From assembly GCA_028820655.1 (NCBI GenBank), contig JAPPIK010000014.1:1-64000 (forward strand): a DNA stretch of 64,000 nt. The letters are read 5' to 3'. Below the pieces are notes generated by a model. That model searched no databases and was not told the origin of the DNA. It worked only from the letters and a program-made list of their open reading frames with translations. Position numbers and translations under genes: made by a program. Every line of letters begins with the position of its first letter. Positions within the stretch are counted from its first letter, which is position 1. Shown in pieces: positions 6,097-21,826 of this stretch. The stretch is from Candidatus Poribacteria bacterium. GTDB taxonomy: Bacteria > Poribacteria > WGA-4E > JAJDTR01.

Positions 6097-6582
6097 ATGA
6101 AATGGTCGTGTTTGATTTTGATTTTTGCTAATTTTTCAGTGATGCATGAGGTTATCTGTCTTGCCCAAAATGCGGATGTGGCTAGTGAAGGCGGTACTAT
6201 CAGGGGACATATTGAAGACACGACGGCGCAGCGAAACCCCATTGAGGGTGTTGTAGTAATCGTAAAAGACGTTTCGGGTGACGAATTGACAACGACGACG
6301 GATGAACATGGGGAGTACGAGATTACAAATCTGCGGACGGGCAGATATTTTGTCAGCATCTATAAAGATGGTTATGGAGATAGGGTGGGCAAACCGGTCA
6401 TGGTGGTTGCTGGCGGTGACAGGTATTTTCCGCTGAAGATGACAAAAAAAGACAATATTGATATGTTGTCTCAAAAGATGGGATTTGTCTTCTGGCCATT
6501 GGCGCTATTGACCATTGTCGCCCTCACGTTGATTCTTTTGATTGTCGTGCGTAGACTGAGCAGGAGTGATTCCGTGGAATGA
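6097..6582 (+). CDS. Truncated paralogue of the fused ExbB-like protein
   Basis: 161 residues: a signal peptide (1-24), a carboxypeptidase-regulatory / CnaB-like beta domain (about 32-108), and one membrane helix (about 130-150), ending in RRLSRSDSVE. It matches the first ~145 residues of the ExbB-like protein at 18770-19777 nearly residue for residue; both share SIYKDGYGDRVGKPV, VVAGGDRYFPLKMTKKDNI and QKMGFVFWPLAL. It stops where the MotA/TolQ/ExbB proton-channel domain should begin. ATG 6097 has AAAAGGATG just upstream. It could be a decayed copy or a genuine regulator or membrane anchor; the intact reading frame and clean start favour a product being made. Confidence 0.75.
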   Translation: MKWSCLILIFANFSVMHEVICLAQNADVASEGGTIRGHIEDTTAQRNPIEGVVVIVKDVSGDELTTTTDEHGEYEITNLRTGRYFVSIYKDGYGDRVGKPVMVVAGGDRYFPLKMTKKDNIDMLSQKMGFVFWPLALLTIVALTLILLIVVRRLSRSDSVE

Positions 6583-6727: not shown

Positions 6728-7057
6728 ATGGCTAGAGATGCATTGGGCTTAGTTGAAACGAGAGGTTTGGTGGGGAGTGTGGAAGCTGCGGACGCGATGG
6801 TAAAAGCCGCAAATGTGCAACTCATTGGATACGAGAAAATTGGCGGCGGATATGTGACCGTAATGGTACGCGGCGATGTTGGGGCGGTAAAAGCAGCGAC
6901 CGATGTCGGAGCGGAAGCGGCCGGAAAAGTCGGAGAGGTTGTTTCAGTGCACGTGATTCCGAGGCCGCATGCGGAAGTTGAATCGATTCTACATTCGATC
7001 ACTGGGAATGGGCCTGTATTGCCCCTCGGTCTAAGTGACGAAGATTCTTCAAGCTGA
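6728..7057 (+). CDS. BMC-H microcompartment shell protein (EutM/PduA/CcmK type)
   Basis: 109 residues with a single BMC domain ([22 protein letters not shown] to [11 protein letters not shown]), the hexagonal tile that forms the facets of protein-bound organelles. The pore-lining loop reads KIGGGYVTV, which suits small polar or charged metabolites. After the BMC domain there is a short tail (about residues 88-109) ending in an acidic [15 protein letters not shown] sits upstream of ATG 6728. It is 18 bp from pduL, so the two are co-transcribed. Only one BMC-H copy is present here; a functional shell would also need a vertex protein (found at 47964) and usually more tiles. Confidence 0.95.
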
Positions 7058-7075: not shown

Positions 7076-7783
7076 ATGCGCGACCAGGCGTTAATCGAAA
7101 CAATTACCCGCAAGGTGCTAGAGCAGATTGGCGGCGATCAACCGTGCAGCGGTTGCGCATTACGGGTTTGCGATGCGGGCGAGCGAGCCTGCGACGCCGC
7201 GATCTCTCAGAGCAAAATCCCTGTCGGCGTTTCAGCGAGACATGCACATGTTTCCCAGGAGCACTTGGACATTCTTTACGGTAGGGGACATCAATTAACC
7301 ACTCTTGCACCACTATATCAACCAGGCGCGTTTGCGGCACAGGAGACTTTGACCGTAGTTGGACGGAGAATGCGGTCAATTGAAGGCGTGCGAATCTTGG
7401 GACCATCAAGAGACTACACGCAGGTCGAACTTGCTCGTACCGATGCTATTCGATTGGGATTGGATCCACCAATTCGCGATTCAGGCGACCTCGCGGGCTC
7501 AGAACCGATAAGCCTGATTGGACCGGCAGGATCGTTATACCTGAACGAGGGCGCAATATTGGCGACCCGGCACATTCATATGACACCTCAGGTTGCTAAG
7601 TCTTTCGGTGTAGAAGATGGTGATTCACTAAAGGTGCGAATTCCGGGCAATCGTGCTTTAACACTTGAGAACATTCGACCGAAGATTTCTCCCTCCTATG
7701 TTTTGCAGATGCATTTGGACACCGACGATTCAAACGCCGCGGGACTACGCGGCGGCGAAGCTGTCGAGTTGCTGCGAGACTAA
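7076..7783 (+). CDS. pduL: PduL-type phosphate acyltransferase with Cys-rich N-terminus
   Basis: PduL exchanges CoA and phosphate on an acyl group (acyl-CoA to acyl-phosphate), recycling CoA inside microcompartments. Both halves of the PduL fold are present: the first with SARHAHVS (zinc-binding His pair) and GAFAAQETLTVVG, the second with TRHIHMTPQVAKSFGVEDGD. The 235 residues exceed the usual ~210 because of an N-terminal extension. An amphipathic helix (ALIETITRKVLEQIGG, residues 5-20) looks like an encapsulation peptide. It is followed by a linker with Cys24, Cys27, Cys32 and Cys39 (CX2CX4CX6C). ATG 7076 lies 18 bp after the shell gene. Confidence 0.93.
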   Translation: MRDQALIETITRKVLEQIGGDQPCSGCALRVCDAGERACDAAISQSKIPVGVSARHAHVSQEHLDILYGRGHQLTTLAPLYQPGAFAAQETLTVVGRRMRSIEGVRILGPSRDYTQVELARTDAIRLGLDPPIRDSGDLAGSEPISLIGPAGSLYLNEGAILATRHIHMTPQVAKSFGVEDGDSLKVRIPGNRALTLENIRPKISPSYVLQMHLDTDDSNAAGLRGGEAVELLRD

Positions 7784-11804: not shown

Positions 11805-13889
11805 ATGCCTCAAAAGGAGGTCCACTTACGCGATTACCTTGCGGTAATACAGAAGTACGATTTCATTATATGTTTGTGCTTCTTGTTGATTGTAGGTACT
11901 GCTCTTGTAATTAGTTTACACCTGCCCAAAACTTACGTAGCGTCTGCGCTGCTAGAGTTTAACCAACCGGCATCAAGCCCACCAATACCATCCGGTAATG
12001 TTGTTCAAAGCGTCCTATCTGGCGGAGTTGACCGCAGCGAAATGGAAACTGTCGGTCAACGATTTCTGTCGGAGTCTATGATAATGGCGGCGATTGAACA
12101 ACTCGAGGAATCGGAAATCGGCGGTGTTTCCCATTTGCCCCCCGTCGGTAAAATAAGACGCAATCTCAAATCAAAGAGTCGTACCGATTCTCACAACATT
12201 GAACTTTCGCTGTCACTTTCTGAAGGGGAAGGCGGCGAGCGTAATGCGGCTCTCCTGATTAATCATTTAGTTGCTGAGATGCAAGAACACCGCCGAATGC
12301 AGAACTCCGGCAAATTGAAGCAACGCCAACAATTACTACGCGAAACAATGAAAGAATTGCGGAAGGAGGTGGAGAATAAAGAAGACCAAGCGCTTGAGTT
12401 TGTTCGACAGAAAGGTGGTCCTGGAACCTGGCGAGAAAAACTCTCTAGTCTTTTCCTACGACGGGCATCTCTACGAGGGAACTTGGAACAACTCGAGTTG
12501 GGAATTGGTTCGTCTGAGAAGGAATTGGAGCATCTTAGGGAAGAAATCAAGAACCACCCCGAATATACAAAACTCACAGAGACAGTGGGTACTAATCCAA
12601 TCTGGTTGTCTCAAATGGAGAGGCTTATTGCTCTTGAGGTCCAAAGAACCGGGCTAATTGCTTCTGGAACAGGTGAGAACGCTCCGGGGATGCAGTCTAT
12701 CGAAGCGCAAATTAAGGACATTGAGGACAGATTGTCCACCTCCATATCTAATGAAGCTATTACTTCGGTGGCTAACGGTGTATCTCCACTCTATAATGCT
12801 GTTCAGGAGCGATTGATAAATCTACGAACGAGCATCATTCGAGCACAACACAACCTTCCGTTAGTCAAGGCTCAGCTGGAGAAGGTTGAAAGCGAGTTGA
12901 CGCAACTACTTGGTGCCATACCTGAGAATGAGATGCTGATTGAAAAGATGGAGCGGGAGATTGAATTTAGGCACGAGTTGACAAAAGAGACCTTCGCGCG
13001 GATTCTGCAAACCGACATTTTAATAAACGAATCGGATCCGTCACATGCTACATCAGGAGCCGGTAATTCCATAGGAGGACTTGAAGTCGTTGACGGTGCG
13101 GTGCCTCGCAAGATTCCCACCAGTCCCAGAGTCAAGGCAATTGTAGCAATCGCCGGCATCGTCGGCTTGGCGCTCGGGGTTTCTGTTGCCCTTCTCATGG
13201 AGTATTTTAGCACTACCTATAGCTCATTAGAGGAGGTAGAATCCGACTTGGACACAGCCCATTTGGGGCGCGCTCCCGAACCGAATGGTACAAGCCTAGG
13301 TGACCACAGTATATCGGAAGGATTTCAGGAAATCGCAGCAAACATCAATCTTTCAAATCCCGGCATTAACAAGCAGGTGATAATGTTTGCCGGATGCGAT
13401 CACGACGACCATGTATCTGAGATTACGGCCAATCTGGGCGTCACACTTGCTTTGGCGAAAACCCCTGTCTTAGTGGTTGACTGCAATCTACTTGCACAAA
13501 AGCAGCGTGAGACATTCGGTATAGCATCTGATACCATTCGACAACCTACACAGATCGAGACGTTTACGGATTGGCAGCAGGCGATTCAGAAGACTGAATT
13601 TGCGCATGTTGATTTATTCAGTATCAGTAGTGTTGCGTCTACACCGGTTGAATTCCTTGACTCTTCTCGCCTTCAAGTACTCTTCGAACAGTTCCGTGAA
13701 CATTATGAGCTTGTGTTGATTGACGCGCCGCCGCTTCTTGCTTCGGCAGATGGACTGGCTCTAGGTACTCACGCTGATGCCATTGTATTGATTTTCAATC
13801 TCTCCACGACTTCACGTCAATCATTGAGGACAGCCCGCGATAGAGTGACTCATGCCAATCTCTCTCTTCATGGGTTCATAACGACCTAG
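11805..13889 (+). CDS. Wzz/BY-kinase-like polysaccharide co-polymerase with defective P-loop
   Basis: 694 residues. The N-terminal part is a Wzz-type chain-length determinant: TM1 at about 19-38, then a long extracytoplasmic coiled coil (about 170-400). TM2 lies at about 445-465, preceded by the Pro-containing region PRKIPTSPRVKA typical of this class. The C-terminal ~200 residues have the BY-kinase/MinD fold: Walker A' (VLVVDCNL) and Walker B (VLIDAPPLLASADGL) are clear. The Walker A position reads MFAGCDHDDHVSEITANLG and lacks the Gly-Lys-Ser/Thr needed to hold ATP phosphates. There is no C-terminal tyrosine cluster. It may regulate capsule or exopolysaccharide length without kinase activity. 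No glycosyltransferase neighbours are in the window. Confidence 0.85.
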   Translation: MPQKEVHLRDYLAVIQKYDFIICLCFLLIVGTALVISLHLPKTYVASALLEFNQPASSPPIPSGNVVQSVLSGGVDRSEMETVGQRFLSESMIMAAIEQLEESEIGGVSHLPPVGKIRRNLKSKSRTDSHNIELSLSLSEGEGGERNAALLINHLVAEMQEHRRMQNSGKLKQRQQLLRETMKELRKEVENKEDQALEFVRQKGGPGTWREKLSSLFLRRASLRGNLEQLELGIGSSEKELEHLREEIKNHPEYTKLTETVGTNPIWLSQMERLIALEVQRTGLIASGTGENAPGMQSIEAQIKDIEDRLSTSISNEAITSVANGVSPLYNAVQERLINLRTSIIRAQHNLPLVKAQLEKVESELTQLLGAIPENEMLIEKMEREIEFRHELTKETFARILQTDILINESDPSHATSGAGNSIGGLEVVDGAVPRKIPTSPRVKAIVAIAGIVGLALGVSVALLMEYFSTTYSSLEEVESDLDTAHLGRAPEPNGTSLGDHSISEGFQEIAANINLSNPGINKQVIMFAGCDHDDHVSEITANLGVTLALAKTPVLVVDCNLLAQKQRETFGIASDTIRQPTQIETFTDWQQAIQKTEFAHVDLFSISSVASTPVEFLDSSRLQVLFEQFREHYELVLIDAPPLLASADGLALGTHADAIVLIFNLSTTSRQSLRTARDRVTHANLSLHGFITT

Positions 13890-14111: not shown

Positions 14112-14140
14112 TTGACAGATATTACCAGAAGTGATATCTT
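14112..14140 (+). promoter_or_regulatory. Strong sigma70 promoter upstream of outer-membrane protein cluster
   Basis: TTGACA at 14112-14117 and TATCTT at 14135-14140 with a 17-base spacer, preceded by an A-rich run (UP-like) at about 14100-14108. Transcription starting near 14147 would give a leader of about 300 nt before the first open frame at 14452. Confidence 0.65.
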
Positions 14141-14346
14141 AAAGGCTCATTTGCTGAAAACTACCTGTTTTCCGCGTAATGAGACAGTGCAGAGTCTTAC
14201 GGCAGCCAGCTTTTAGATGGCCGCGAGAATTAACAGATCCGTCGTGATTTCGCGGAATTCGTAGTTAACAAATAGTGAAGTTACCGGACTTCTGTTTTCC
14301 CGAAATCGTGCAGAATTGATTTGATACTATCGAGACCGGGATATTG

Positions 14347-14661
14347 AATTGATCAGCAGGCATCTCATTCCTGCTGTTTGCTTTGATTATCACATGTTTT
14401 GCCGGATTTGGCTGCATTCCAATTGCTCGGTAGAGTCAAGGAAAAGCGATAATGTTAAACCCACAGCTAAGCATTGTCTCCGTAGTCACATGTAGCTTGA
14501 CTTTTTTCATCTGGTATGGCTGCGGAGCGTCAAGTCCGGTGGTGCCTCAAGAACCATTACAGTCAACAATTGAACGGCAGTCAAAATTCGCGGATCGATT
14601 CAGATTGGAAGAAGAGCCTCAATTCTTTTATGACCTGTTTGGAGACGAGTTGCTAAGCAGC
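14347..14661 (+). repeat. Direct repeat, copy 1 of the leader and N-terminal coding part
   Basis: This stretch and 15080-15390 are diverged direct repeats offset by about 734 bp. The similarity starts in the untranslated leader (shared ATCT..TTCCTG.TGTTT) and runs through the lipoprotein signal and the first ~70 codons of the large outer-membrane protein. Confidence 0.7.
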
Positions 14662-14869
14662 AATAAATCTTCAGCTGAAATATGTGGTTGCGGTGCAGCG
14701 AATCCGACACGCCAAGAACCGATGTTGCTTTCAATGAAAGGGCAGTCAATTTTTTCTAATCGATTCCGATTGGGAGAGGGCCTAAATACTTTTATAACGT
14801 GTTTGGAGAAGATTTGCTAAATGGTGATGAATCTTCAGGTGAAATACGTGAAAATGAGTTGCTTAAGAG
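14452..14869 (+). pseudogene. Decayed N-terminal copies of the large outer-membrane lipoprotein
   Basis: The open frame 14452-14820 (122 codons) starts with a lipoprotein signal (lipobox WYGC) and the module PQEP.....QSKFADRFRLEEEPQ plus FFYDLFGDELL, the same as the start of the 1,113-residue protein downstream. A second, shorter module follows (14677 on: CGCGAANPTRQEP, FSNRFRLGEG). Near 14788 the reading frame slips: one frame gives NTFITCLEKIC and stops at 14818-14820, while the neighbouring frame restores FYNVFGEDLLNGDESS. So there are two remnant modules, the second frameshifted. A short lipoprotein could still be made from the first. Confidence 0.7.
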
Positions 14870-15079
14870 TAATAGAATTAGATTGTGGTACCTTGATTAG
14901 CAAGGAAAAAGTTGCGGACTAGCGCACTTTGAGGGTACCTCAGGATAGACATTGCCGTACCGTGTATATGACGGATCGGAGGGCAGTGAATTGTTTGGTT
15001 TCGCGAACACTTTTATGTGGTGTAGTTTAGAATGGAATTAGTGCTTTGGAGACAGAGAGACGGTTGAACAATTGATACT

Positions 15080-15390
15080 GTATTGATTAACGGGTATCTA
15101 CTTCCTGTTGTTTACTCTGCTTTTCACTTTTTCGTCGGTTTCAAAATAAATCCAATTTACTTTATGGAGGCAAGAAAAAATGAATATGTTGAAACGGTGG
15201 TTAAATACTGTTTCTGTGATTGCATGTATCTTGAGTTGTTTCATCTTGTACGGTTGTGGTGCGTCAAGTCTGGGACCTCAAGAGCCATTGCTACCAACGA
15301 TTGAAGGACAGTCAAAGTTCTCTGATCGTTTCCAATTGGAAGAAGAACCCCAGTTCTTCTATGACCTATTTGGAAAAGAGTTACTTGAGG
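15080..15390 (+). repeat. Direct repeat, copy 2 of the leader and N-terminal coding part
   Basis: This is the intact partner of 14347-14661. It covers about 100 bp of leader and the first ~70 codons of the full-length outer-membrane protein. Methionine codons 14452 and 15186 occupy equivalent positions. Confidence 0.7.
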
Positions 15391-18300
15391 GTAATGAGGT
15401 TTTTAATTATCGCGAGCGAAAAGAATTCGATCAGAACGGTGAACTCATCGCCGGTTGGACGGGACAACTCGATAGCGAAAGATTTTCCGCACAGTTGGAC
15501 CGTACGATCCTTACCACGGATAGCTTCCGAGGCAGGCATAGCGAGTTCGCAATCGGGGACAACATGCGTATCAAGCCTTCCACGCTATTCCCCAATCGGT
15601 ACATCATTTTCAAAACAGAATTTGATGGGTTTAGGTGGGACCTATCTTTTTCACAAGAGCGACACCTCTTTACCTTGCTGAATTCACGTATCTCTAACCC
15701 CGTTAGGCTTTCAGACGCGGCTGCCAACCTTGCACCGACACTCGGTCGTAGAAATGGCTTAAACGACGACGCCCAGTTGCGACATATTGAGAATGCTCGT
15801 TTGATAGGATTTCGCGCTCAAGGGCTTTTGGGCGATATTTTCCGTGTAGGGGTTACCTACATGAATTTGCACAAGGAACACCCTGAACGAGTTGAAAATC
15901 CGCTGCTAGGTACGGTGCCTAACACGCCGCCCGAACGCATCACCGTAGTCTTCCGCGATGATTCGCCAGAGGATAACCACCCGAGGGCGTTTCTGGGACT
16001 GAGCCGCACCCGCGACGCCGAGCTAATTCAAGGGGGTGTAGGAGCGGCGGTGAAGGATATTAAGGTCACGATTGTTACTCAGGCGGAAGAGGAGATTACT
16101 CGAACCGAGCGGATCCAAGGCGTGGAGCCGGGGCTTTTGCCGGAGGAGACGACTGTCATAAGTGCGGCGAATGGGTCGTTCGACCTCGGATCCGACATCT
16201 CTCCCGTATCGGGTAGTAGGCCACCGCAAAACTCTGAGGACGGGCTTTGGAAGATAGTTGAAGGATTCCAAGCGATGAAGTATGACTTGGTTCTCGCGGA
16301 TCACAACATTGATCCAAGGCAAGTCAAGTCAGTAGCTTTTGATTTGGTGGTTGCCGGTGACTATAATATCGTCGTCATGGGCTTTAGCGAAGCCAATAAG
16401 GCCGAAGATGATCCCGAACTGCAAGAATGGATTAAGACAGAGGATGGTCACATTGAGATGCCATTTCGGGATGTGATTCAAGCTCCGGGCAATTTCGGTC
16501 AATCTTCGGTATATGCTGAAAACCGTGATAGCCTCGCCTATAATCCTAGCCAGTGGACCGAAGAGGGGAGACCACGAAAGATTCACTACCGCTACGGCGC
16601 TGCCCGTGCGGCAATTCTTTACGGTCTCGACCTTGAAGGTACCCTGTTCAACACATTTATACGTGCGCATTACTCAATCAACAGCAAGCATAAGCAATAT
16701 CCGACAGTACCCAAGGATAAGGTCGGCTTCAGTCGACTAAAGGAAGAGATCGTTACACCTGACGGTACGGAGTCCACGGGCATTAGTATTGACCGTCGCT
16801 CTTTGCTCCCCGAAGACGCCAATGGCATACCCACTTATTCCGAAACTGAAGGAGAACAGTTTGAAGCCCGATTGGGTGGCGATGGAACTCCCGAAGTTGG
16901 GGATGGGGAATTGGGACGCGAAGTTGCTTGGTTTGTCAATCTCAAGCAACGTTTTGGGAAGTTATTCCTTGAGGAAACTTTCTATCATATTGATCCCGGA
17001 TATACAACGACATATCGGAATTGGGGTGCCAACAGCGATAGAGATCAGACGTACTCCTTACCGCGTACTCCCGAATCTTCGTCAGAGGTCGATCCATTCG
17101 ATGAAATTGATTATCAGCTCATTGAAGACGATGATGATGATGACGATTGGCCCGATGATATCGATTTCGATGGCGTTCTGCCGCGTGCTGATGATCGTGA
17201 CCAGAATGGAATCCTAGACTTTCAGGAAGACTTTCTTATCTTTGAAGCAGATCCGCCCGTCTTCACGGATCTTGTCGATCTAAACAATAACGGAACAATC
17301 GATTCGCTAGAAGATGATTTTGAGCCGCAATACGAGTACGGAATTGACCGTGAGGGATACCACCTCGTCGCCAGCTATGACGTACTCGACAACCTGACGC
17401 TGAAGGTCGGATGGTTGAACGAAAGCGAAGTTTCCAGCCGGCGCCAGAATGACTCAAGATATTTTCACGTCACCTATCAGCGTGATATTCCGGATTTTGG
17501 TACAATTTTGTTCCAAAATCGTTTGGTTCGCGTTAAAGACGACATCCCGGATTACACAATTACCTTGCGTGTTGGAGAACTCGAACCTGTTCAGATATCT
17601 GATGAACTTGATTTCTACAACTCACGGGTGAACACTACCGCTCTTCAATTTCTCTATACGGCAATTCCGAACTTGACTTTAGAAGCAAAGTTCCTGGTTG
17701 CCTTGCAGAAACAATTTCAACCGGACGATGAGGCTGCCATTTCACTAGACCGGGTGGATGATGAGGAGGCAACGCGAACCGGAAATGAGCGGAATGAGCG
17801 GACTGATTTCATGGTACCAATCGAGCAGGTGCGCGATTCGGGTGAGAAGCGAGAATTTCCGTTCTATCCTGACCATGGAATCAACCCATTGGACCGAGGG
17901 GATACCGGGTTGATTTATGATTCAGACAACTGGAAACCCCGACGGTACGATGAAAAAACTATCCGCAACCAAGTGACCATTTTGCGGGCGAAATATGAAA
18001 TCCCGTTGGGCGATATTGGATTCGTGAAGAATATCGGTGAAGACTTGACCGTCACACCGATGGCGAAGTATATCTGGGAGAAAGTCTTCGACCACACTGC
18101 CGACGATATCGCCGCCGGTGTATATGTTTCGCCGCTCAATCCACGCCTTTACGTTCCCACAGACACTGAACCGATTGAGTACCTCCGATTCAACAAAAGA
18201 AGTCGCGAGGATGTCTTGGGGGTTCGATTGGATTACCAATTTACACAGAGAATGAACGTCCTTGGTGGTTTCCAATATCGCAAATTTACCAACCGTGATA

Positions 18301-18521
18301 GTAACTTCAAGGAGTTCTTGACAAACTTCCCGTCAGATGAGGAAGTACCCATTCTATTCCGTCCTAACCTCCGAACACGAATCTTTGAAATTCAAGCAAT
18401 TAACCGCGGTGAATGGCTTGGATTTAATATCGTGATTCTCGCCGGTTACAGACGAACAACCATTTTGCTTGAAGACACAACAAGCAACACGACATTTGTT
18501 CGTGCGATGATGGGATTCTAA
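15180..18521 (+). CDS. Large outer-membrane beta-barrel-like lipoprotein
   Basis: 1,113 residues, not assigned to a known family. The N-terminus is a lipoprotein signal (lipobox LYGC at about residues 24-27). The body is rich in alternating, amphipathic strands with many Arg/Tyr/Asp residues. It carries an acidic insert at about 645-660 (IEDDDDDDDWPDD) and calcium-loop-like segments (DRDQNGILD, DLNNNGTIDSLEDD) at about 670-715. The C-terminal third (about 720-1113) looks like barrel strands (YHLVASYDVLDNLTLKVGWL and others), and the last residue is Phe after VRAMMGF, as in many outer-membrane proteins. ATG 15180 follows GGAGG at 15166-15170. The following genes encode an ExbB/ExbD motor, so it may be the motor's client or receptor. 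Confidence 0.75.
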   Translation: MNMLKRWLNTVSVIACILSCFILYGCGASSLGPQEPLLPTIEGQSKFSDRFQLEEEPQFFYDLFGKELLEGNEVFNYRERKEFDQNGELIAGWTGQLDSERFSAQLDRTILTTDSFRGRHSEFAIGDNMRIKPSTLFPNRYIIFKTEFDGFRWDLSFSQERHLFTLLNSRISNPVRLSDAAANLAPTLGRRNGLNDDAQLRHIENARLIGFRAQGLLGDIFRVGVTYMNLHKEHPERVENPLLGTVPNTPPERITVVFRDDSPEDNHPRAFLGLSRTRDAELIQGGVGAAVKDIKVTIVTQAEEEITRTERIQGVEPGLLPEETTVISAANGSFDLGSDISPVSGSRPPQNSEDGLWKIVEGFQAMKYDLVLADHNIDPRQVKSVAFDLVVAGDYNIVVMGFSEANKAEDDPELQEWIKTEDGHIEMPFRDVIQAPGNFGQSSVYAENRDSLAYNPSQWTEEGRPRKIHYRYGAARAAILYGLDLEGTLFNTFIRAHYSINSKHKQYPTVPKDKVGFSRLKEEIVTPDGTESTGISIDRRSLLPEDANGIPTYSETEGEQFEARLGGDGTPEVGDGELGREVAWFVNLKQRFGKLFLEETFYHIDPGYTTTYRNWGANSDRDQTYSLPRTPESSSEVDPFDEIDYQLIEDDDDDDDWPDDIDFDGVLPRADDRDQNGILDFQEDFLIFEADPPVFTDLVDLNNNGTIDSLEDDFEPQYEYGIDREGYHLVASYDVLDNLTLKVGWLNESEVSSRRQNDSRYFHVTYQRDIPDFGTILFQNRLVRVKDDIPDYTITLRVGELEPVQISDELDFYNSRVNTTALQFLYTAIPNLTLEAKFLVALQKQFQPDDEAAISLDRVDDEEATRTGNERNERTDFMVPIEQVRDSGEKREFPFYPDHGINPLDRGDTGLIYDSDNWKPRRYDEKTIRNQVTILRAKYEIPLGDIGFVKNIGEDLTVTPMAKYIWEKVFDHTADDIAAGVYVSPLNPRLYVPTDTEPIEYLRFNKRSREDVLGVRLDYQFTQRMNVLGGFQYRKFTNRDSNFKEFLTNFPSDEEVPILFRPNLRTRIFEIQAINRGEWLGFNIVILAGYRRTTILLEDTTSNTTFVRAMMGF

Positions 18522-18535
18522 ACTCTGTTGATTCT

Positions 18536-18584
18536 ATGCTCTCCCCTGAACCTTGGCTCGCTATAGGGGAGAGCATGTTTTCTT
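18536..18584 (+). terminator. Hairpin terminator after the outer-membrane protein gene
   Basis: A perfect 12-bp stem (ATGCTCTCCCCT at 18536-18547 with AGGGGAGAGCAT at 18565-18576), a 17-nt loop, and a T-rich tail GTTTTCTT. It begins 15 bases after the stop codon, so the outer-membrane protein and the ExbB gene are probably transcribed separately. Confidence 0.75.
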
Positions 18585-18769
18585 GAGGTGGAGGCGCAAC
18601 TTCCCTCCGGTGCTGGTGTTTATAGTCTCGGTTTGCTTGGGGGATGTGATCCTGTGAAAGGTTTGGCCCTAATAGAAAATCCATTACATCTGGAAATAAG
18701 CTAGGGACATAATATTAGCAAATCGAATCAATGTCCCAAAAATTTTTGTCTATCTAAAAGGAGGCAGAT

Positions 18770-19777
18770 ATGAAGCGGTTGGGTTTAGTTTTAGCAATTG
18801 CGATTCTTTCCACGATGGGTAGCATTATCACCGTTGCCCAAGAAGCAGAAGTGTCCGGTGGGGGTGGTACTGTTCGCGGAACCATCGAAGACACTACAAC
18901 TGCGCGAGCCCCCATTCAGGGCGTGCAAGTGATTATCAAGGATGTCTCTGGTAATGAATTCACGGCGGAGACTGATGACGCCGGAGAATACGAAATTACA
19001 AATCTACCTACCGGCAGATATTTCATTAGTATCTATAAAGATGGTTACGGCGACAGAGTGGGCAAGCCGGTAAACGTGGTTGCCGGCGGAGACAGGTATT
19101 TTCCGCTCAAAATGACAAAGAAAGACAACATAGTTACCTTCTTTCAAAAGATGGGATTTGTCTTTTGGCCGTTGGCGCTGTGCTCTATTACAGCATTGAC
19201 ATTTATTATCGAAAGATTCTTTACGTTTGCCCGTGCGAGATCGAAAATCGGTGCAGAGCAATTCATGGCTAGTATTACGGATTCGCTGCGCAATGAAAAC
19301 ATAATGGAAGCTGTCTCTACATGCGAGGATGCCGGCGGACCGCTTGCCAACGTGTTGAAAGCTGGGCTGTTAAGGTACAGTCAGGCGCAAATTGAAGAAC
19401 GCGAAATCACCAAAGACGAGATTCAGGAATCCATTGAGGAAGCGGAATTGCTTGAGACTCCGGAATTGGAAAAGAATCTTCCGGTTCTTGGTACGATCGC
19501 GGTCGTCTCACCTCTCTTCGGTCTTCTTGGAACCGTTACTGGTATGATTAACGCCTTTACAACAATTGCATTGGAAGGTACCGGTGATCCGCAACAGTTG
19601 GCGGGAGGTATTTCTCAGGCGTTGTTAACAACAGCGGCTGGTCTCACCATCGCTATACCTTGCCTAATCTTCTATCAATTATTTGATAGTTGGGTCAACA
19701 GGTATGTTCTTGAGATTGGCCAGGTTTCAACGGAAATCGTCAATCAGCTTGTTCTTGGCCAAGAAAACGCCGCATAA
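18770..19777 (+). CDS. exbB: ExbB/TolQ-type proton channel fused to a periplasmic carboxypeptidase-regulatory domain
   Basis: 335 residues. Signal peptide 1-24, then a carboxypeptidase-regulatory/CnaB-like beta-sandwich (about 32-108), then the MotA/TolQ/ExbB domain. This has TM1 at about 127-148 (GFVFWPLALCSITALTFIIE), a cytoplasmic helical region, and TM2/TM3 at about 240-320 with the signature LGTIAVVSPLFGLLGTVTGM and ALLTTAAGLTIAIPCLIFYQ. ExbB uses the proton gradient to drive TonB-type or other envelope motors. The N-terminal domain is unusual; classical ExbB is ~240 residues with no such domain. AAAGGAGG precedes ATG 18770. exbD genes follow at once. Confidence 0.93.
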   Translation: MKRLGLVLAIAILSTMGSIITVAQEAEVSGGGGTVRGTIEDTTTARAPIQGVQVIIKDVSGNEFTAETDDAGEYEITNLPTGRYFISIYKDGYGDRVGKPVNVVAGGDRYFPLKMTKKDNIVTFFQKMGFVFWPLALCSITALTFIIERFFTFARARSKIGAEQFMASITDSLRNENIMEAVSTCEDAGGPLANVLKAGLLRYSQAQIEEREITKDEIQESIEEAELLETPELEKNLPVLGTIAVVSPLFGLLGTVTGMINAFTTIALEGTGDPQQLAGGISQALLTTAAGLTIAIPCLIFYQLFDSWVNRYVLEIGQVSTEIVNQLVLGQENAA

Positions 19778-19792
19778 AATTGGGCTTATTGG

Positions 19793-19837
19793 CTTGCTAG
19801 AAATCTGTCTACTGAAGAAAGACAGATTTCTAGCAAG
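19793..19837 (+). promoter_or_regulatory. 18-bp perfect inverted repeat between exbB and exbD1
   Basis: Arms CTTGCTAGAAATCTGTCT (19793-19810) and its exact complement (19820-19837) enclose the 9-nt loop ACTGAAGAA. There is no T-tract after it, so it is not a typical terminator. It may set the exbB:exbD ratio as an RNA processing or stability hairpin, or be a small mobile palindrome. Confidence 0.8.
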
Positions 19838-19905
19838 TGTACCTTGGGCAGAAGTTCAAGTACTTTCGGATTGGGATTGTCATCGGTCCGCAGGGAGGTG
19901 TCGAT

Positions 19906-20361
19906 ATGCAGCAAGTAGCAAGCAGCGTAAAGAAACAAACATTGCTTTCCACAAGACTTAGAGAGAGAAAAGCGCCTACTCTCAGTATGGCTCCTATGAT
20001 TGATTGTGTGTTCCTGCTCTTGATTTTCTTCATGGTTTCAACCACCTTCTCGCCAATGCCGGGAATCCGTGTTCAGCTCCCTCCGCCAGGTAAGCCAAAT
20101 ACGGAAAAGCCGAAAGGGCTGATTGTGAGGATTGCCAACCCGTCCGACGGGCAGCGCGAGGGAGTCATGGTCCTGAATGATGAGGTTGTCGAGATTGAAC
20201 AGATGTTTAGTCGATTCATCAATGCGAATGAAGAGCAGAAGAATATGCTGATTATTCAATCGGAGCGAAGGGTTTTGCACGAACAGATTGTTCAAATCAT
20301 GGATAGAGCTAAGCAAGCAGGTATTGATAAGATAGGTTTTGCGGTTGTAGCGCGAGAATAA
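19906..20361 (+). CDS. exbD: ExbD/TolR biopolymer transport protein, copy 1
   Basis: About 151 residues: short basic cytoplasmic start, then the ExbD signature LSMAPMIDCVFLLLIFFMVS with the membrane Asp that conducts protons, then a periplasmic domain ending in MDRAKQAGIDKIGFAVV. ATG 19906 is chosen because GGAGG at 19895-19899 precedes it; an in-frame start at 19837 would lie in the hairpin and add 23 atypical residues. It partners the ExbB-like channel upstream and the second ExbD 29 bp downstream. Confidence 0.92.
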   Translation: MQQVASSVKKQTLLSTRLRERKAPTLSMAPMIDCVFLLLIFFMVSTTFSPMPGIRVQLPPPGKPNTEKPKGLIVRIANPSDGQREGVMVLNDEVVEIEQMFSRFINANEEQKNMLIIQSERRVLHEQIVQIMDRAKQAGIDKIGFAVVARE

Positions 20362-20390
20362 TCGCGAACATTAGGAAAGGAGATTTCAAA

Positions 20391-20801
20391 ATGATAAAGC
20401 GGAAACAGAAAGATAGAGATGAAGATATACCGATGGCGCCTATGATTGATTGCGTGTTTCTGCTCTTGATCTTCTTTATGGTTTCGGCAATTATGCGCAT
20501 CCCACCGCCGTTTTCGGTTAATCTGCCAGATTCTGCTACCAAACATGAATTCCCACGAAAGAAATACAACGTGTTTATTAGTCAAGATGGGCGTTTGTCG
20601 GTGGATGATCAAGAAATGCTAACTCTTGAAGATCTGGATTTATTCTTGGCAGCGAACGAAAACAAGATTAGCACGCTGATAATCAAGGCGGATAGGAGGG
20701 CCGAGCACGGAGTTGTGATTGATGTGATGGAGCGTGCTAAACAGCGATTCAGCAAACCAGAAGGACAGGAAATCGCGTTGGCGGTTTCAGAAGAGACTTG
20801 A
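20391..20801 (+). CDS. exbD: ExbD/TolR biopolymer transport protein, copy 2
   Basis: 136 residues with PMAPMIDCVFLLLIFFMVSA as the proton-conducting helix and a periplasmic domain ending in VMERAKQRFSKPEGQEIALAV. The periplasmic domain is clearly different from copy 1, so the motor may use a heterodimeric ExbD pair, as in several Gram-negative ExbB-ExbD1-ExbD2 systems. ATG 20391 has AAAGGAG at about 20378-20384. No tonB gene is visible in the window. Confidence 0.92.
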   Translation: MIKRKQKDRDEDIPMAPMIDCVFLLLIFFMVSAIMRIPPPFSVNLPDSATKHEFPRKKYNVFISQDGRLSVDDQEMLTLEDLDLFLAANENKISTLIIKADRRAEHGVVIDVMERAKQRFSKPEGQEIALAVSEET

Positions 20802-20835
20802 TTCAGCACTAGACACGCACGCAAGAAGCGATTTG

Positions 20836-20863
20836 AAAAAGGCAGCGCAAGCTGCCTTTTTTT
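20836..20863 (+). terminator. Intrinsic terminator of the exbB-exbD unit
   Basis: GGCAGC - GCAA - GCTGCC stem-loop (20841-20856) flanked by AAAAA and seven T residues (20857-20863). The A run makes it able to act in both directions. Confidence 0.92.
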
Positions 20864-20926: not shown

Positions 20927-21826
20927 TGGTGCTAGTTTGAAATTTGGAGGTTGATAGGCCTAACATTCCGTTTTGGCTTTGCTTTGGTGCAAAATGTGTC
21001 ATGGTCATGAGACGATTTCCTCAATTCTTCCGTTAATTTGAGAATCAGTAGTTATCAAATAACGGGAGGAAATCTAGACTCATGACCATAGAAGATTTTA
21101 TCACAGAATTGTTTTGTTGTGTTGATGATAAACTCTCACAGTGCGGCAAGAATCGTAAGCACAGCCAAGCCAAACTCTAACCGTCCGAAGTGGTTACGAT
21201 TGCCATGCTTTTTGCACTCAAAGGCGTGAGCAATCGAGCCTTCTATCGCTGGATAGCAAACAATTTCAAACACTTATTCCCGAGATTACCCCATCGCACT
21301 CGATTGCTCCGCTTGATTGATGGGCATCGACGTCTAATTGACGTTTTCATGGCAAAGCCTTCGCTCATCGGCGTAATTGACACTTACGGCATTGAATTGA
21401 TTCACCGGCGTCGAGAAGGACGTTCTAAGCGTCAAATCGGTCGCAAAGGCATTTCTAATCAACGATGGATTGTAGGTGGAAAACTTTGCCTGCTACACAA
21501 TCATCTCAACACCTCATTGATGGAGTCAGTGACCAGATGGTTGTTTTTTGCCGATGAAGGGTTTGCCAAAGCGGATTGGTTTCCTACCAACTTACGTCTG
21601 TGCCGACGTGGCGAGTGGAATTCTCGGATGTTGGTAGAAACAACCTTATCTATGTTGACACTCGATTTTAAGAAAGTCATGCATCGACGTTGGAGTTTCT
21701 TCAAAACGCGAGTCGGCTTTACAATGGCTTTGTTTAATCTTTTGGTGCAATGGGACGGGGTGTCGATTCACGAAAATGGCATTGTGCATTTATCAATCGC
21801 TCAATTTAGTCTCTAAACTAGCACCA
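20927..21826. mobile_element. IS982-family insertion sequence, inactive
   Basis: A 12-bp perfect inverted repeat (TGGTGCTAGTTT at 20927-20938; complement at 21815-21826) encloses a degenerate transposase gene. The inner ends diverge after 12 bp. No clear target duplication is seen next to the repeats, so the ends may extend a few bases either way. It lies between the exbD terminator and the convergent gltD 3' end, where insertion would do little harm. Confidence 0.75.
21082..21816 (+). pseudogene. IS982-family transposase, nonsense mutation and internal loss
   Basis: ATG 21082 opens a typical N-terminus (TIEDFITELFCCVDDKL), but codon 33 is TAA (21178-21180), at a place where the family has an aromatic residue in the YPSE.VTI motif. 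The same frame then continues as PSEVVTIAMLFALKGVSNRAFYRW, GVIDTYGIELIHRRREGRS and IGRKGISNQRWIVGGKLC. Between GGKLCLLHN and FFADEGFAKADW the region that normally carries the middle of the DDE core appears shortened by roughly 30 residues, while the C-terminal CRRGEWNSRMLVETTLSMLT is kept. The element should be unable to move on its own. Confidence 0.85.

Follow-up and report, generated by a model that had tools for sequence, protein, structure and literature searches.

Which client does a Ton-type motor serve when its genes lie directly behind a large outer-membrane protein and no tonB gene stands beside them? In the accepted view, motors of this type act on the outer membrane via TonB, TolA or Glt-like adaptors, and the question is raised by a locus from Candidatus Poribacteria, a sponge-associated phylum. 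The window, as we call the whole stretch of DNA analysed, comprises 64,000 nucleotides of contig JAPPIK010000014.1 (C15) in a 5.9-Mb, 95% complete genome (GCA_028820655.1; G000). It encodes a 1,113-residue lipoprotein, an ExbB with an additional periplasmic domain and two ExbDs, which a preliminary description had read as a possible dedicated transport machine whose fused domain may replace or anchor the TonB-like part. We confirm the observation, while the interpretation is partly supported: the motor is probably the general Ton motor of the cell, with the barrel-forming lipoprotein as its constant partner. An ExbB with its own periplasmic domain, tied across a phylum to a barrel that is not a receptor, would allow direct action of ExbBD on the outer membrane to be tested.

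The barrel lipoprotein and its motor genes

The large protein begins with a signal peptide and a lipobox (LYGC) whose cysteine, Cys26, is invariant in 40 of 40 order-level sequences and has an equivalent in deeper relatives; in the order-level sequences it also ends in an invariant Gly-Phe. Searches against Pfam, NCBIfam and PDB sequences returned no significant family match. With a diverse alignment (A3, deeper relatives plus two groups of smaller paralogs), AlphaFold2 (AF2) predicted 21 clear long antiparallel strands, with 22 likely, a beta-sandwich at residues ~250-405 and a disordered N-terminus (predicted local distance difference test score, pLDDT, 70.9; predicted template modelling score 0.73). 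Close relatives alone gave a pLDDT of 42 and a model whose fold search was not significant. Foldseek returned 50 matches at E<=0.001 which, among the matches listed, were outer-membrane barrel proteins or their complexes: Deinococcus SlpA came first (8agd, 8ae1, 7zgx; E 9e-9 to 5e-8), and SprA, BtuB, Occ porins, FpvA and LptD followed. Template modelling scores to SlpA were low (0.16-0.19), so that the fold class is supported by the model and its details are not; the smaller paralogs match SlpA_C (PF21620) at E 1e-7, under the curated cut-off. The C-terminal Phe, the model and the fold matches indicate that the protein is very probably a membrane-embedded outer-membrane beta-barrel, in agreement with its first description as an outer-membrane lipoprotein.

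It is not a receptor of the usual kind. No match to the Plug domain (PF07715) was found in it at E up to 1, nor among the families matched by 52 members, and we rejected a plug-bearing TonB receptor on this ground; a TonB box was not recognisable either. Pfam scans likewise found no SLH domain, and the AF2 model contains no coiled-coil stalk. Conservation instead picks out two other segments. The acidic insert at residues 641-722, where the calcium-loop-like inserts first described are indeed present, is the most conserved part of the barrel (77% identity to deeper relatives); it gives an EF-hand-like Pfam match at E 0.56 only, and it fits the acidic lumen metal-site inserts of the SlpA type. 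The N-terminal arm has ~80 highly conserved residues that are predicted to be disordered; residues 31-110 are 72% identical to those of deeper relatives, compared with 38% for the sandwich, 51% for the C-terminal strands and 50-63% for most barrel strands. Because the arm is conserved yet disordered and hangs on a lipid anchor, we infer that it is a candidate docking segment. A smaller relative of the barrel (809 residues) is encoded elsewhere in the genome (L105:8156-11510, contig C20), directly behind a PorV-family protein and near a protein with an FlgD/sorting-like C-terminus.

The motor genes follow on the same strand (Table 1). The channel domain of ExbB (MotA_ExbB, PF01618, E 2.5e-32) lies at 19340-19714, and ahead of the first transmembrane helix, at 18869-19096, is a CarboxypepD_reg domain (PF13620, E 4.1e-13), which bears out the extra periplasmic CnaB-like domain noted before. 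The two ExbDs are different proteins, as described; each matches PF02472 and retains MAPMIDCVFLLLIFFMVS, the motif with the transmembrane Asp. For ExbD1, the open reading frame listing starts at a GTG (19837), but an ATG at 19906 is preceded by a ribosome-binding site and is the better start. The strong terminator reported at the end of the set was also recovered. Deeper relatives carry the same CarboxypepD_reg fusion and two other ExbBs scanned are without it; the ExbB fusion is phylum-wide.

Parts of the ExbB fusion also occur on their own. A free-standing 161-residue copy of its N-terminus (signal peptide, CarboxypepD_reg and first transmembrane helix; 69% identical) lies at 6097-6582, directly before the bacterial microcompartment (BMC) shell gene, and short copies of a similar kind are found in other Poribacteria genomes. 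Two secreted proteins of ~600 residues (L129:1961-3781, L130:1231-3021) combine an ExbB-type signal peptide with a CarboxypepD_reg module, the one scanned (L129) running on into a transglutaminase-like domain; since they share the leader of ExbB, the fusion module resembles a mobile leader of Poribacteria. In some relatives, a third ExbD-like gene comes after the set (L004:16936-17310, L009:15905-16321, L048:16031-16447, L063:15945-16349).

Table 1. Positions of the core genes, their segments and the flanking elements in the window.
Feature	Positions	Strand	Remarks
Barrel lipoprotein gene, 1,113 residues	15180..18521	+	Outer-membrane beta-barrel prediction, SlpA-like fold
N-terminal arm, residues ~27-148	15258..15623	+	pLDDT mostly 24-46; strong conservation
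Beta-sandwich insert, residues ~250-405	15927..16394	+	pLDDT mostly ~77-96 over 251-400, one block 58
Acidic metal-loop-like insert, residues 641-722	17100..17345	+	DDDDDDDWPDD...DQNGILDFQED...DLNNNGTIDSLEDD; DxNxDG-type loops
ExbB fusion, 335 residues	18770..19777	+	Signal peptide, CarboxypepD_reg/CnaB-like domain, MotA_ExbB channel domain
ExbD1, 151 residues	19906..20361	+	Channel Asp; PF02472, E 6.4e-25
ExbD2, 136 residues	20391..20801	+	Channel Asp; PF02472, E 6.7e-23
Intrinsic terminator, hairpin and U tract	20835..20862	+	-22.2 kcal/mol, z -3.9, no shuffle equally good
Promoter-like site TTGACA-N17-TATCTT	14112..14140	+	Consensus scan only; such sites not enriched over shuffles
Degenerate copy of barrel gene N-terminus (signal peptide, lipobox, conserved arm)	14452..14820	+	tblastn to residues 3-73, 68-69%
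Wzz-type polysaccharide co-polymerase (GNVR/Wzz, weak AAA_31 C-terminal region)	11805..13889	+	PF02706, PF13807, PF13614, weak E-values
PduL phosphate propanoyltransferase (PF06130)	7076..7783	+	Context, not core
BMC shell protein (PF00936-type)	6728..7057	+	91% identical to L030 copy; published as BMC-A; context, not core

The preliminary description had placed the whole set at 14112-20863. The gene set stands, but positions 14112-15179 are not part of the large gene: they hold the promoter-like site and the degenerate N-terminal copy, behind which is a second, frameshifted partial copy. The closest relative (L030) also has a short barrel N-terminus copy of similar kind. Just past the terminator, a possible remnant of a DDE-type transposase (21190-21816) gives a weak Pfam match (E 0.08).

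Conservation of the barrel-motor order

We compared 62 order-level loci and several deeper lineages. The order barrel, ExbB, ExbD1, ExbD2 was found in 49/49 order-level loci of the linked type whose downstream sequence was long enough, with a median of 337 bases between barrel and ExbB, and the two were again adjacent in the deeper families read, where a 4.4-kb tetratricopeptide repeat (TPR) gene is inserted in one locus (L122). Barrel and motor remain neighbours at ~50-63% protein identity, and at neither level did we find the ExbB/ExbD genes apart from the large protein. Profiles of barrel and ExbB were both matched in all phylum genomes searched (85/85), the best match being partial or weak in a few (G060, G084), and a search with the barrel across genome contigs gave Poribacteria only among the matches listed.

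Within the order, a longer block is conserved as well. The BMC shell gene is the first gene of a wider conserved ‘BMC-A’ neighbourhood; among the 37 linked loci whose upstream sequence reached far enough, 31 had BMC and 34 had PduL matches, and a Wzz-type gene lies upstream of the barrel in 31/37 order-level loci and 5/7 deeper ones. Because this longer block is conserved too, order-level synteny by itself is weak evidence for a specific tie between barrel and motor, and it is the deeper comparison that carries weight: there, most flanking genes change while the barrel-motor adjacency persists. Inspection of the deeper loci, with no dedicated search, recognised no BMC or PduL gene beside the core set.

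Ten more barrel copies with enough sequence lack ExbBD. These and one truncated copy group as one clade that falls within the linked copies, and for this reason the unlinked barrel looks like a later duplicate that stands alone. This duplicate adjoins secreted proteins with sorting domains like those of type A in the type IX secretion system (T9SS) in 6/11 loci (L027, L029, L034, L035, L055, L065), versus 0/51 others; TIGR04183 was over its cut-off in the three loci scanned (L034, L055, L065).

What the motor drives

That the locus holds no TonB gene, as stated before, is correct for the locus and not for the genome, which has two adjacent orphan TonB genes on contig C42 and, on contig C35, a TonB-like gene next to a second ExbB that is not accompanied by an ExbD. 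The genome also has 15 matches to the plug of TonB-dependent receptors, and TonB_C proteins occur in 63/63 Poribacteria genomes searched. The only PF02472 ExbDs recognised in this genome are the two of the barrel locus, and most of 64 Poribacteria genomes have two or three ExbDs, with strong matches mainly at that locus. Because no other ExbD is recognisable while TonB and receptors are present, the motor of the barrel locus is probably the general Ton motor of the cell and the barrel its constant partner; economically read, it drives TonB in most of the Poribacteria cells sampled, and it may in addition act directly on the barrel. On the same grounds, the description of the machine as dedicated is doubtful, and the suggestion that the fused domain replaces TonB is not supported, although, given one deeper genome (G070), the machine may be dedicated in part. 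A second conserved set in the phylum consists of a TPR protein, a ~570-residue barrel-like protein, an ExbB and a TonB-like protein, with no recognised ExbD (L104:3010-10169 on contig C35; L167:105-5988 in G059).

In this arrangement, ExbB, ExbD1 and ExbD2 would form an inner-membrane proton motor of the Ton type, encoded beside the barrel lipoprotein. With the five-fold ExbB stoichiometry of ExbBD motors generally, the periplasmic side of the motor would carry one transthyretin-like CarboxypepD_reg/CnaB domain per ExbB, as a crown around the ExbD tails, and the ExbD dimer would turn or shift as protons pass by way of its conserved aspartates. The motor would most likely drive TonB proteins encoded elsewhere, and through them the TonB-dependent receptors, and would also work with the barrel, whose disordered arm may hang from its lipid anchor into the periplasm, where TonB, the ExbDs or the ExbB crown would be most likely to dock on it. 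We hold this account, a Ton-type motor driving TonB from elsewhere with the barrel as constant partner, with about even confidence. Several points weigh against it: the locus itself is without tonB; a Plug domain is not recognisable in the barrel, which is thus no standard TonB client; the argument from the only ExbDs would fall if there were a divergent ExbD that PF02472 does not match; the longer block with BMC, PduL and Wzz genes is also conserved within the order; and, in the unlinked duplicate, a close relative of the barrel is kept away from the motor.

The first alternative is that of a dedicated TonB-free machine, in which the ExbB crown, the ExbD tails or both act directly on the barrel arm and the TonB systems are separate. 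An adjacency that holds at such divergence, a conserved disordered arm that suggests a partner, and a fusion that is restricted, among the ExbBs tested, to the barrel-linked one are all consistent with it, as is the deeper genome G070, which keeps the barrel-motor locus despite an extra ExbB-ExbD-TonB cluster on another contig. However, separate TonB systems would leave the TonBs of the present genome, in which no other ExbD is recognisable, without a motor, and TonB is present in every genome searched. The contact with the barrel that this reading requires is hypothetical, and we regard direct coupling as unlikely. Its fuller form, a phylum-wide TonB-independent machine in which the CnaB-like ring and ExbD1/ExbD2 act on the arm so as to move the acidic, metal-bound insert in the lumen, strikes us as rather unlikely.

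The Wzz-type gene suggests instead a machine for polysaccharide export or surface glycan, in which the barrel would receive polymer from the Wzz-type protein and be powered by the motor, in the manner of AglRQS with Exo/Nfs in Myxococcus or of barrel translocons that pair with outer-membrane polysaccharide export (OPX) proteins. That gene is directly upstream in most lineages, one deeper locus (L122) has Wza/OPX, Wzz and barrel in a row, and in AglRQS, too, two ExbDs go with one ExbB (PMC3169522). Yet two deeper loci (L124, L127) lack an upstream Wzz, reading of order-level loci brought up no OPX gene, the single Wza of the present genome is on another contig, and the published translocons, at 18 strands, are much smaller than the barrel; nor was a glycosyltransferase cluster noted beside the locus, where no systematic search for one was made. 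We consider this reading improbable. The barrel as a composite OPX translocon was rejected, an adjacent OPX gene occurring in one deeper locus only (L122).

We find it just as improbable that the barrel is an SlpA-like scaffold, porin or outer-membrane tether that lies next to the motor for historical or regulatory reasons alone. The best fold matches (Deinococcus SlpA, E ~1e-8), the sub-threshold SlpA_C matches of the smaller related barrels, the large metal-site lumen inserts that SlpA also has (PMC9388160) and the existence of an unlinked duplicate all point in this direction, but neither SLH domain nor coiled-coil stalk was found in the protein, and the adjacency persists through divergence as deep as the phylum, over which most of the genes around it differ.

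It is highly improbable that the motor takes the place of GldLM in a type IX-like secretion system of Poribacteria. Matches to SprA_N in 38/40 genomes, mostly in frames of ~2,150-2,300 residues, include a 2,154-residue protein of the present genome that reads as SprA-like (L173:5202-11666, contig C1); Poribacteria also have proteins of the PorV family and sorting domains of the T9SS type, and GldM_1st (PF12081) was found in 0/20 genomes in a search in which no control genome passed the cut-off either. Together these suggest that the phylum may possess a type IX-like system, for which no motor was recognised. Sorting-domain neighbours, however, which accompany the barrel duplicate, adjoin none of the 51 linked or truncated loci, and the barrel has no profile similarity to SprA; a SprA-like identity for it was rejected on that basis. 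Vitamin B12 import beside the microcompartment, proposed by Jahn et al. 2016 for BMC-A, agrees with the neighbourhood shared with BMC shell and PduL genes within the order and with published co-localisation at membranes (PMC5087111), but it is a very remote prospect given that the barrel is no plug-bearing receptor and that BMC and PduL genes were not recognised beside the deeper core sets by inspection, outside any dedicated search.

Comparison with known systems

The locus had been regarded as an undescribed system, which does not hold for its motor genes: these were described in 2014 and 2016 as part of BMC group A, defined in Poribacteria by Kamke 2014 (PMC3909097). Both loci have the ExbB-type protein with a carboxypeptidase-regulatory domain, the two ExbDs, the BMC shell protein and PduL (PMC3909097, PMC5087111), and an exopolysaccharide-synthesis protein is likewise common to them; they are very likely the same locus. 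For BMC-A, Jahn 2016 named ExbD, ExbD* and a MotA/TolQ/ExbB protein that includes a carboxypeptidase regulatory-like domain, with transcription at 2.6, 3.3 and 4.9 times the housekeeping level, read the zero coverage flanking these genes as marking a polycistron, immunolocalised ExbD* to membranes and proposed B12 import for the region (PMC5087111). Also named were an exopolysaccharide protein and an outer-membrane-predicted ‘RhoGEF’ (PMC5087111); in the BMC-A papers the outer-membrane protein is given as a predicted RhoGEF (COG5422) or not at all, and this ‘RhoGEF’ is likely to be the present barrel gene. New here are the assignment and fold of the barrel, the phylum-wide coupling and order of barrel and motor, and the genome-wide census of motors, TonB and ExbD. 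They correct what had been published on this highly transcribed locus of a dominant sponge symbiont, where the outer-membrane partner of the motor had been called a predicted RhoGEF or hypothetical.

SlpA is not known to have an ExbBD partner. Together with OmpM-type barrels, SlpA/SDBC of Deinococcus gives the best fold match and carries in its lumen large inserts that hold acidic metal sites (PMC9388160), whereas the poribacterial barrel is without SLH domain or stalk and is lipid-anchored. TonB-dependent receptors share with it a large barrel, an N-terminal periplasmic segment and a position beside Ton motor genes, but the poribacterial protein differs in being a lipoprotein with a sandwich insert, with neither PF07715 nor a recognisable TonB box.

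Among motors, the AglRQS gliding and sporulation motor likewise joins one ExbB/TolQ-type to two ExbD/TolR-type proteins, with the difference that no CarboxypepD_reg fusion is reported and that its partners are Glt proteins (PMC3169522). In the Ton(Oar) system of Myxococcus xanthus, exbB1-exbD1-exbD2-tonB1 serves the barrel Oar, so that here, too, one ExbB and two ExbDs are tied genetically to one barrel, and this system can power export (PMC6434023). Unlike the poribacterial locus, it has TonB inside the cluster and a plug-bearing receptor, and CarboxypepD_reg is in that system a domain of receptors (PMC6434023), where in Poribacteria ExbB carries it.

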